Origin: a virus
Strand: one strand, 5' to 3'
IMG/VR virus record: IMGVR_UViG_3300048930_000264
Location: 1-37,355 of that record
DNA length: 37,355 nucleotides
Part shown: positions 9,348-13,224 of the stretch, in pieces
Position numbering within the stretch: position 1 is the stretch's first letter
Layout: each line of letters begins with the position of its first letter
Position numbers and translations under genes: made by a program
Notes under the pieces: model-generated
The model's input: only the letters and a program-made list of their open reading frames with translations
Database searches by the model: none
What the model was told of the DNA's origin: nothing

Positions 9348-9699
9348 AATCGACACCGGCAACGTCTTCGCGGTCCCGCTGACCAAATCCTCGGCCGTCG
9401 ATGACGGCATGCGGCTGGACTGGTCACGCGACCATACCGCCGCCGAGCGGTTCCACCGGCACACCATCAGCCAGATATGGTCCGTCGACACGGTCAAGGA
9501 ACTGGACGCCTTCATGGCGGCGGAGAGCCTCGCAATAGACGCTCTCTGGCTCACGCATCCCCATTACGCCGAGCGCATCGACGCTGCGGCGACCGAGGTC
9601 CGCTCCATGATCGGAGCGGCTACGACCGCGAAAGCGGTCCCCCAACCTGCCCAGAATGGCAACACCGGAAAGGACCAGACAGATGACTTTTTCTTTTGA
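9340..9699 (+). CDS. Unknown replication-module protein with SSB-like acidic tail
   Basis: ATG 9340 lies inside the end of the RusA gene. The 119-residue protein has a helical middle (TVKELDAFMAAESLAIDALW, then HYAERIDAAATEVRSMIGA) and a Pro/Gln-rich linker. It ends TGKDQTDDFFF, an acidic tip with terminal Phe that recalls the protein-interaction tail of bacterial SSB and T7 gp2.5. It has no clear OB-fold. A recruitment or adaptor role in phage replication is suggested only by this tail and its neighbours. Confidence 0.5.
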   Translation: MFEIDTGNVFAVPLTKSSAVDDGMRLDWSRDHTAAERFHRHTISQIWSVDTVKELDAFMAAESLAIDALWLTHPHYAERIDAAATEVRSMIGAATTAKAVPQPAQNGNTGKDQTDDFFF

Positions 9700-10358: not shown

Positions 10359-12476
10359 ATGACCCCCACACAGCCGAGGCCGGAATTGATGATGCCGCAG
10401 CTGCAACTGACGCGCCCGCAATCCATTCCAGACCTCGCCGCCCGCCTGATCGGCCTAGGCTACCACCCCGTACCGATCGACCGGGGCAACAAGTACCCGA
10501 CGATCTCGGGCTGGCAGAACCTGCGCCTGACCGCCGAGGACGTGCCTTCATACTTCACGCCCCTGTCGCTGGTCGGCCTGCTGCATATCAACGTCGCCTG
10601 CTTCGACATCGACGTCTACGACCCCGACCTCGCCAACGAGATCGCCGCCGAGGGCTTCCGCCGCTTTCCCGGCGCGCTGGAGCGCATCGGCGAGGCGCCC
10701 AAGACAATGCTTGTCATGCGCCTCGACGCGCCCGGCTGGCGCATCCACCAGACGCAGAAGGCCACACGCGGCGACCTGACGGGGCAGGTGGACGTGCGCA
10801 CCGTCACCCGCCAGTTCGTCGCCTACGGCCCACACCCCGCCACAGGGCAGCCCTACCGCTGGCCGCGCGGCGAGTTGTGGGCGACGCCGCAAGCCGACCT
10901 GCCGGCGCTGGAGCGCGACGCCGCCGAGGACTATCGCGACTGGTGCGCCGACCGGCTGCGCCAGTGGGGCGACAAGGCGCCCGCGGCCGTCATCGACATC
11001 GGTGAATGGCGCAGCGCGCCCGCCGGCATCGCAACGGACGAGCGGCCGACAGAGGCGCACTTCCTGGAGGCGCTGTCCCATGTGCCCGCAGACCTCGGCC
11101 ATGATGCCGGATGGTTGAGCGGGCTCATGGCAATCCATGACTTCTTCGGCGGCAGCGCCCGCGGGCTGGACGCCGCCAAGGACTGGTCAAGCGCAGACAG
11201 ACGATACAACGCGCGCGAGGTCGAGACCAAGTGGCGCAGCTTCGAGGTCGGCCGCGGCGTCAGCTACAAGTCGGTGTTCCATCTGGCCAAGCAGAACGGC
11301 GCCGATCTGTCCGACATGGCGCGGCGGCACAGGCCGGAACCGCAGCCGCTGCGGATCGACACCGGGGCCGACTACACGACCACAGGAGCCGCGCCAGAGA
11401 CGGCGCAGGCGGCCACGCAGGCGAGCGCGCTGGAGTGGTTTGACGACATCGAGCCGAGCCTGTCCGACGCCTACTTGGTCAAGGACATGCTCGCCGCTGG
11501 CGCCATGTCGGTAATCTACGGCCCGAGCAACAGCGGCAAGACCTTCAAGGCGATGGACATCGCGTTCCATCTTGCCGCCGGCCTGCCATGGCGCGGGCGG
11601 CGCGTCACACAGGCCGCAGTGCTCTATCTGGCGGCCGAGGGCGGGCGGGGCGTGGCCAATCGCATCGCCGCCCTGAAGCGCCACACGGGCGCGCGTGGCA
11701 TCCCCTTCGCCCTGCGCCGCGCCGGCTTCGACCTGCTCCGCAGCGAGGCAGACCTCCAGCACATCTACACGCTCGCACGAGAGGTGCAGGAGCGCGCACC
11801 GGGCGCCCCGCTGCTGATCGTCATCGACACACTGTCCCGCGTCATGGCCGGCGGCGACGAGAACGCGCCCGCCGACATGACGGCCTTGATCAAGAACATG
11901 GACACGATCCGCGAGGCGACCGGCGCGCACATCATGCTTGTCCACCACACGGGCAAGGATGCCGCCAAGGGCGCCCGCGGCCACAGTTCATTGCGCGCCG
12001 CGACGGACACCGAAATAGAGGTGCAGGTCGAGGGCGACAGCCGCGCGGCACTGATTACCAAACAGCGCGATTATCAGGGCGGCGAAGTTTTCGCATTTGC
12101 CCTGCAATCCGTAACGCTGGGAATAGATCAGGACGGCGACGACGTAACAAGCTGCGTCGTGGTCGAGGCGGAAGCCGAGGAATTCGTGGCGGCGAAAAAG
12201 AAGCCGGGCAAAAACCAGAAAGCACTGCTTGAAACCTTTGACCAGATGCTCGGCGAAGGCATGTGGAGGCCCAACCCCGGCGGGCTCGGGATGGCCGAGC
12301 CGGGGCACTTCAAGGCGGTCCAGATGGACGACTTCAGGGCCGCCTGCGAGGGCCGTCTGGTCGCAAAAAACACCCGCAGCGCCTTCCTGACCGCCTTTGA
12401 TAGCCTCCTCGGCCCAAACGGGCCTTTTGTGCTGGCGTCGGGTTTGGTCTGGCGCACCGACAGAAAGGTAAACTGA
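10359..12476 (+). CDS. Primase-polymerase / RepA-like AAA helicase fusion
   Basis: This 705-residue protein should both prime and unwind DNA at the phage origin. Residues about 20-200 match the bifunctional primase/polymerase fold (LGYHPVPIDRGNKYP, then ACFDIDVYDPD with the metal-binding Asp83/Asp85). Residues about 225-315 resemble a PriCT linker (HDAGWLSGLMAIHDFF, ETKWRSF). Residues about 370-600 are a RecA-like ATPase of the AAA_25/RepA type with Walker A GPSNSGKT (about 387-394), Walker B PLLIVIDTLS (about 483-492) and HIMLVHHTGKDAAKGARG. The last 100 residues carry a small DNA-binding-like domain. ATG 10359 may be weakly used because of the hairpin in front. An iteron-like array follows immediately. 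Confidence 0.85.
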   Translation: MTPTQPRPELMMPQLQLTRPQSIPDLAARLIGLGYHPVPIDRGNKYPTISGWQNLRLTAEDVPSYFTPLSLVGLLHINVACFDIDVYDPDLANEIAAEGFRRFPGALERIGEAPKTMLVMRLDAPGWRIHQTQKATRGDLTGQVDVRTVTRQFVAYGPHPATGQPYRWPRGELWATPQADLPALERDAAEDYRDWCADRLRQWGDKAPAAVIDIGEWRSAPAGIATDERPTEAHFLEALSHVPADLGHDAGWLSGLMAIHDFFGGSARGLDAAKDWSSADRRYNAREVETKWRSFEVGRGVSYKSVFHLAKQNGADLSDMARRHRPEPQPLRIDTGADYTTTGAAPETAQAATQASALEWFDDIEPSLSDAYLVKDMLAAGAMSVIYGPSNSGKTFKAMDIAFHLAAGLPWRGRRVTQAAVLYLAAEGGRGVANRIAALKRHTGARGIPFALRRAGFDLLRSEADLQHIYTLAREVQERAPGAPLLIVIDTLSRVMAGGDENAPADMTALIKNMDTIREATGAHIMLVHHTGKDAAKGARGHSSLRAATDTEIEVQVEGDSRAALITKQRDYQGGEVFAFALQSVTLGIDQDGDDVTSCVVVEAEAEEFVAAKKKPGKNQKALLETFDQMLGEGMWRPNPGGLGMAEPGHFKAVQMDDFRAACEGRLVAKNTRSAFLTAFDSLLGPNGPFVLASGLVWRTDRKVN

Positions 12477-12502
12477 TGAAAATCAACAGCATGACACGCT
12501 CT

Positions 12503-12609
12503 GTCGGGTTTGTCGGGTTTGCGTCGGGTTTATCAAACCCGACAGCGGCGTGTCTGTCGGGTTTGTCGGGTTTCTCTATAGGAACCCGACAAGCCGACGC
12601 GAACCCGAC
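12503..12609. repeat. Iteron-like array, candidate replication origin
   Basis: GTCGGGTTT occurs directly at 12503, 12512, 12523, 12556 and 12565, and inverted at 12535-12543; inverted 8-base copies (AACCCGAC) lie at 12583 and 12602. The copies at 12523 and 12535 form a perfect 9-bp hairpin with a 3-base loop, and 12565-12590 forms another. The array fills the gap between the primase-helicase and the next gene, with a T/A-richer patch near 12570-12582. Multiple short direct repeats beside a replication protein gene are typical of iteron origins; the hairpins could be priming sites. Confidence 0.65.
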
Positions 12610-12636
12610 GCGGCAGCCCCAGGCATGGAGAAAAGC

Positions 12637-13224
12637 ATGACCGCCCCCCAGCGCCCCCGCCGCCGCGGCCACGCCGCCGACCGGCTGCTCAACCCCACGC
12701 TCTCGGCCGCCGATATCGCCTGCGATTACGCACTGGCCCCTTTCGACCGGGCGGCGAGGGATGCCGATAACCGATGGGGCATCGACCGACTGCCCGAGTT
12801 GGTCAGCACCGAGACCGCCGCCAAATGGGGAAAGACGCTCGCGTCCCTGAATGACGCAATCGAAACGAGCGATCCCGAAAGCGTCCGCGCATGGGCAGAG
12901 GTCGGCATTCGCGGGCTGGCCGTGATGGACGCCGAAGCCGAAAAGCGCGGCGCAATTCCCGCAGACCCGGCAATATGGGAATACGAATACAACGGGCTGA
13001 AATTCGGCATCTTCGCGGACGGCGCCAAATGGCAGGCGGCGAAACGCAAGCGGCCCGACCTCGTGCTGTATTCCATGCAGGAGGTCGCCGCCGCCCTGGT
13101 CGCGCGGATGGAGGAACTGCCCGCCGTTGCCGCCGCGCTGGCCGCGTTCCCGGAGGCGCAGATCACCGCCGTCAATCGCACCCCGGCGACCATCGCCGAC
13201 GATTCGCTGGAGGATTTCCTGTGA
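12637..13224 (+). CDS. Unknown protein next to the candidate origin (195 aa)
   Basis: ATG 12637 has GGAG at 12627-12630; codons upstream in the same frame run through the iterons and are not used. A basic N-terminus (QRPRRRGHAADR) could bind DNA. The middle is helical (ETAAKWGKTLASLNDAIETS, VRAWAEVGIRGLAVMDAEAE) followed by a strand-rich part (WEYEYNGLKFGIFADGAKWQ). The C-terminus is acidic and ends ADDSLEDFL. No known family. Its position directly after the array makes an origin-related or regulatory role possible. Confidence 0.55.
   Translation: MTAPQRPRRRGHAADRLLNPTLSAADIACDYALAPFDRAARDADNRWGIDRLPELVSTETAAKWGKTLASLNDAIETSDPESVRAWAEVGIRGLAVMDAEAEKRGAIPADPAIWEYEYNGLKFGIFADGAKWQAAKRKRPDLVLYSMQEVAAALVARMEELPAVAAALAAFPEAQITAVNRTPATIADDSLEDFL

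Follow-up and report, generated by a model that had tools for sequence, protein, structure and literature searches.

A repeat array directly behind a primase-helicase gene probably represents the replication origin of a phage, and we assign this reading a probability of about 0.77. The array lies in what we refer to as the window, i.e., the whole 37,355-bp stretch of an IMG/VR virus record that was analyzed and that carries terminase, portal, capsid, and tape-measure genes. As judged from sequence comparisons, the candidate origin would be of the iteron type, would be read by a winged-helix domain of the initiator, and would contain a hairpin with a constant loop. That the array consists of iterons and acts as an origin was proposed in an earlier note on this DNA, and the comparative evidence strongly supports that idea: Almost all relatives have an array, changes in its unit parallel those in the winged helix, and it is accompanied by an IHF-like site and a core. 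It is from this evidence that we infer origin activity.

GTCGGGTT is present in nine copies in the window, all of which map within positions 12437 to 12609, while dinucleotide shuffles gave an expectation of 1.1 copies (standard deviation, 1.07; largest count, 5). Eight copies were previously reported within 107 bp, and we recovered all of them between 12503 and 12609, i.e., five direct copies at 12503, 12512, 12523, 12556, and 12565 and three inverted copies at 12536, 12583, and 12602. A repeat count added a ninth copy upstream, which has the sequence GTCGGGTTT and is located inside the winged-helix coding sequence at 12437 to 12445 (plus strand). A GTCGGGTTT-type copy within the winged-helix gene is also present at 9397 to 9404 in locus L012, which belongs to a distant lineage that shares the unit; the two copies are at a similar Ser-Gly-Leu position and represent iterons within a gene.

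Three direct copies (12503 to 12531, plus strand) are followed by an inverted copy (12535 to 12543, minus strand). Next, two tandem direct copies (12556 to 12573, plus strand) form the left arm of the core hairpin. The core itself, CTCTATAGG at 12574 to 12582 (no strand assigned), is the version in the window of a constant CCTWWAGG and forms the hairpin apex, while the right arm (12583 to 12609, minus strand) comprises the inverted copies at 12583 and 12602 together with a degenerate copy at 12593 to 12598. The perfect hairpins noted previously correspond to two perfect 12-bp inverted repeats in which 12534 to 12545, with the inverted copy, pairs with 12501 to 12512 and with 12554 to 12565; to these, we add a 16-bp inverted repeat (88%) around TCTATAGG (12560 to 12575 with 12580 to 12595). 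Using DNA parameters, the folding of the array as a single strand far exceeded that of shuffles (z = −7.0 for the plus strand and −5.9 for the minus strand). The repeats are short, multiple, more frequent than expected by chance, and located beside an initiator gene, as in iteron-type origins.

The gene upstream of the array (10359 to 12476, plus strand) encodes a protein of 705 amino acids with Pfam matches to Prim-Pol, PriCT_2, and AAA_25, the last being RepA-like, and with a C-terminal winged helix. The gene downstream (12637 to 13224, plus strand) encodes a 195-amino acid protein and is the constant downstream neighbor of the array in phages. Members of this family have approximately 195 residues, a basic N-terminus, and a helical bundle plus a small mixed domain. 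The model of the 12637 protein had no significant match among solved structures in the PDB, and its relatives are uncharacterized phage proteins, except for one labeled terminase small subunit.

A DNA-only search of viral contigs with two tandem units as the query returned 19 contigs, of which 4 have the same replication module (L012, L016, L020, and, in part, L017). No related loci were found with P0003 alone as the query, while they were found with an alignment as the query. The protein-based searches covered the best 80 of 531 helicase relatives in viral loci, 80 loci for the downstream protein in viral contigs, and 23 loci in cellular genomes. Almost all gaps from the helicase stop codon to the downstream gene contain an over-represented unit of ~9 bp in both orientations, and the sequence of this unit is lineage-specific (GTCGGGTTT, GTAGGAAAC, TGTAGAAAA, CTATAAAAA, and others). 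GTCGGGTTT is shared by the window, L012, L016, and L058; the unit in L003 is GTCGGAAAC/GTAGGAAAC; and other relatives have CGGTAGAAA, CGGATAAA, CGGGGAAA, TGTAGAAA, AGTGTAAA, CTACAAAA, CTACATA, AAATCGTA, CTATAAAA, or still other units. The earlier note had named absence of the repeats from close relatives as evidence against an origin; we observed that the array is present in almost all relatives and that it is the unit sequence that changes. In the Caulobacter phage GB2A, the short gap that follows the helicase gene showed no such array of repeats. In the window, units occur only in the array, and the same is the case for five of five copies in the Roseobacter phage CRP-811 and five of six in the Roseobacter phage CRP-823, which, together with the Rhizobium phage 16-3, have unannotated arrays of the present kind.

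The CCTWWAGG core or a close variant is present in 32 of 34 non-redundant gaps between the helicase gene and the 12637-type gene, compared to 6% in shuffles, and usually forms the center or apex of an inverted repeat with arms composed of copies of the ~9-bp unit. Watson-Crick pairs account for 999 of the 1054 arm pairs in 47 distinct hairpins, as counted on the best local alignments picked for a high score, a choice that favors pairing. Hairpin strength and core were also compared with shuffles; ungapped palindrome scoring undervalues hairpins with 1-nt offsets. Each of the four pair types is represented at stem positions 3 to 19 of these 47 hairpins, while the core is constant. The element directly downstream of the Prim-Pol-helicase gene is a stem-loop that is conserved in structure and not in sequence. 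Among non-Watson-Crick transitions in the arms, G-T outnumbers A-C on the coding strand (15 versus 4), which is a weak hint that it may be the coding strand that forms the hairpin.

We also identified an IHF-like site based on WATCAANNNNTTR, which we take to be the IHF consensus. Exact matches are present in 9 of 34 gaps, as opposed to 1.4% of shuffles and 2.3% of stretches elsewhere in these loci; when up to one mismatch is allowed, these values are 28 of 34 gaps, 28%, and 15%, respectively. In many gaps, the site is located between unit blocks ~90 to 110 bp upstream of the core. The site is enriched across relatives, and a motif scan placed the window's own copy, AATCAACAGCATG, at 12481 to 12493 (plus strand) with one mismatch to WATCAANNNNTTR. 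A proposed GC-skew check gave no support for an origin at the array; the minimum in the window is at 15.2 kb, while the array is at 12.6 kb, and the minima in CRP-823 and CRP-811 also disagree with the positions of the arrays. GC skew was, therefore, dropped as evidence for an origin.

The best reading of the comparative data is that the unit is recognized by the winged helix of the phage's own primase-helicase. AlphaFold2 modeled the C-terminal domain (residues 612 to 705; 12192 to 12473, plus strand) as a winged helix with a pLDDT of 81. Foldseek returned no significant match to this domain in the PDB, and its resemblance to the winged helices of CRP and ORC in VIA-align was middling (Z ≤ 7.8); the assignment as a winged helix is thus suggestive. 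Among loci with helicase cores that are at least 88% identical, the median identity of this domain is 0.98 in pairs with the same unit and 0.79 in pairs with different units. Among 57 non-redundant loci, no different-unit pair has winged helices with >88% identity, and no same-unit pair has winged helices with <85% identity. Residue 677 (12387 to 12389, plus strand) in the recognition helix (residues 672 to 684; 12372 to 12410, plus strand) differs in 77 of 77 different-unit pairs and in 0 of 92 same-unit pairs, counts that do not represent independent trials because the pairs share loci and ancestry. The residues with the next highest signals are 661, 657, 664, 684, 678, 674, and 670. In partial correlations, the unit is tied to the winged helix at 0.63, compared with 0.21 and 0.14 for the two parts of the downstream protein. 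In L080 and L114, the units are unrelated, and the 12637-type proteins are 98%, the helicase cores 97%, and the winged helices 77% identical. In the two distant clades with the GTCGGGTTT unit, the recognition helices have R-x-A-[FYW]-[LR]-T-A in common. The opposite case also occurs, in that L050 and L071/L106 share GTAGGAAA, while their recognition helices differ.

Two other candidates were considered. The 12637 protein is disfavored as the reader of the unit because it can stay 98% identical when the unit changes. The primase type was rejected as the determinant of the unit; L012 has a different N-terminus but the same unit as the window, and L003 has the closer helicase and yet a different unit. 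Moreover, arrays are retained with no fewer than three types of N-terminal primase and with helicases of both the AAA_25 and the SF3 type, with L004 being an example of a locus with the DUF5906/SF3-like type and an array. Arrays with the core are also present in cellular loci of Pseudomonadota and Akkermansiaceae (L033, L037, L040, and L046), in which tblastn did not detect the 12637 family. Thus, the array cannot be attributed to the primase type or to the 12637 protein. In L046 (Lysobacteraceae), L037 (Akkermansiaceae), and L040 (Lichenibacterium), the array and core are located behind a RepA-like helicase, and the element, therefore, reaches beyond alphaproteobacterial phages.

We considered four other explanations for the array. 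It is unlikely, although a possibility of some weight, that the primase uses the hairpin for single-strand initiation, comparable to ssiA/ssiB of RSF1010, with no double-strand origin and with repeats that only build the stems. A constant apex with varying, complementary stems is expected of a site that is read by structure, and Prim-Pol enzymes can prime at defined template motifs, as in the case of NrS-1 with TTTGGTTA and GTG (PMC8718748). However, a sequence reader is needed to account for the homogeneous units outside the hairpin and for the link of the unit to the winged helix, and the core is kept while the N-terminal primase type is exchanged. Somewhat less likely again, replication would start elsewhere and the array would only be an operator or RNA attenuator of the 12637 gene and the genes behind it, acting via binding of the primase-helicase to the units or via folding of the transcript. 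Initiators often autoregulate at their own iterons; the array lies between two same-strand genes within an apparent operon, and the lean of G-T over A-C is on the coding strand, as in a folded transcript. Single-stranded DNA hairpins tolerate G-T pairs too, though, and both the enriched IHF-like sites and the covariation of iteron and reader fit DNA binding. Also, we found neither a promoter-like site nor a poly-T terminator at the array, the sole terminator-like site being located upstream of it (12411 to 12424), and no Rfam family was assigned to it; the Rfam 15 covariance models gave only two matches, both below the gathering score and neither at the array.

The observation that the winged-helix coding sequence adjoins the array counts against the origin reading because a single recombination tract could replace both without functional coupling, in which case the array may serve in partition or as some other cis element. 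The downstream protein is also more different in different-unit than in same-unit pairs (identity of 0.71 versus 0.90), as expected for such a tract. On the other hand, the 12637-type gene, which lies just as near to the array, follows the unit much less, as reflected in the partial correlations, and this argues against single-tract replacement; the signal is also concentrated on the recognition helix, and a search with part of the window proteins revealed no parA/parB-like gene. We consider this explanation very unlikely. Finally, the array had been said to fill the only non-coding gap in the replication module. The array is confirmed, but an open 54-codon frame extends across the gap (12476 to 12640, plus strand) and overlaps the preceding stop codon and the following start codon. 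An open frame that overlaps both neighboring genes would be compatible with a small protein of 54 residues in which the repeats are protein repeats. By contrast, the frame has no family match, changes in the arms are compensated at the DNA level, and any open frame over a 9-bp period yields three-residue repeats. Because the sequence of the gap is unconserved in relatives and a separate GGAG ribosome-binding sequence serves the 12637 gene, the frame is probably a by-product of the 9-bp period; a 54-amino acid gene in the gap was rejected as scarcely credible.

For the array as an origin, we envision that hexamers of the primase-helicase would dock on the units via the winged helix and that host IHF would bend the DNA, thereby bringing the inverted unit blocks together. 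The helicase would then melt the array, and the core hairpin may extrude to mark the place of helicase loading or first priming, after which the primase domain would lay the primer. Within this mechanism, the part assigned to the hairpin core is the most speculative. Specificity, i.e., the unit together with the recognition helix, would evolve as a cassette that can be swapped, thereby providing every lineage with a private origin.

The combination of genes and repeats was previously likened to RSF1010-type origins. The oriV of RSF1010 also has a RepA-like hexameric helicase, a primase, iterons, and hairpins close together. However, RSF1010 has separate RepA, RepB', and RepC proteins, while in the window primase and helicase are fused and the apparent reader is the C-terminus of the helicase rather than RepC; moreover, the units are 9 bp, and a single shared hairpin core takes the place of the two ssi sites. 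Thus, the comparison holds for the logic of the origin and not for membership in the RSF1010 type. Closer precedents are the stem-loop origin of pRN1 and the origins of SaPI, SCC, and P4 next to the initiator gene. The Sulfolobus plasmid pRN1 requires a stem-loop that is located directly behind the gene for the Prim-Pol-helicase and was tested by deletion and relocation; the structure of this stem-loop is conserved, while its sequence is not (PMC4234260). As in the window, the cis element of pRN1 is directly downstream of a Prim-Pol-helicase-winged-helix gene. However, the helicase of the window is of the RepA-like AAA_25 rather than the SF3 type (the relative L004 is of the SF3 type), and the window and its relatives have clear iterons (nine copies in the window), an IHF-like site, and the shared CCTWWAGG core, while pRN1 has no iteron structure according to its authors, who proposed a similar origin for the Bordetella phage BIP-1 and near-identical relatives including BPP-1 (PMC4234260). 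In BPP-1, we found two inverted 9-bp units, GTTTGCCTC, downstream of the replication gene. SCC Cch2 and SaPI Rep use the C-terminal domain to bind iterons that lie next to their own genes (PMC7581432), a likeness to the arrangement proposed for the window; the helicase family, units, and hosts are different, and a constant hairpin core is not described in the passages considered. P4 alpha, which also acts with short repeats, is a primase-helicase that has a winged-helix domain for origin binding at its C-terminus (PMC4234260), similar to what we propose for the window, but its primase is a bacterial TOPRIM primase, while that in the window is a Prim-Pol primase.

Altogether, the array is conserved and is probably a functional origin of a known general kind, and the variant lies in a constant hairpin core combined with fast-switching units tied to the recognition helix; no description of this variant was found in the open-access papers searched. 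More tentatively, and at somewhat less than even odds, these arrays may define a widespread class of phage and prophage origins in which a constant CCTWWAGG hairpin and an IHF scaffold are combined with a private, fast-switching 9-bp iteron that is cassette-swapped with its winged helix even where primases and helicases have been exchanged, which would prevent coinfecting phages from using or titrating each other's replication machinery; the recognition helix would then contain a readable DNA code. The replication origins of most environmental phages are unknown, and a signature consisting of the CCTWWAGG hairpin, the IHF-like site, and variable 9-bp units behind a primase-helicase gene would allow origins to be called in hundreds of phages. 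The natural variation of the unit would provide a ready data set for the DNA recognition code of winged helices, and it lets one ask why origins diversify fast, e.g., to escape from coinfecting relatives or satellites. The array would also join pRN1, BPP-1, SaPI, SCC, and P4 under one logic, in which the initiator recognizes repeats next to the gene that encodes it, in several cases by its C-terminus.

We note several observations on individual loci. The repeat run of C and G at the contig end of L003 (7270 to 7324) looks like an assembly or sequencing artifact. In the gaps of L024 and L059, which are of the Aquamicrobium/Chelativorans type, short repeats (GTTACGGA and CCTCCGCA) and an exact IHF-like site are present; this lineage has no CCTWWAGG core and a different C-terminal domain. 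In the Clavibacter phage 33 (L211, 6803 to 7600), the unit GTGACAGTA recurs with a 9-bp period in direct and inverted orientation downstream of a Prim-Pol/DUF5906 primase gene and beyond a small gene. In the Rhizobium phage 16-3 (L208, 5551 to 5980), the unit GCGTGACAA and the core CACTCCTTTAGGAGTG are located behind gene p101, which suggests that this array marks the position of the origin in a cultured phage.
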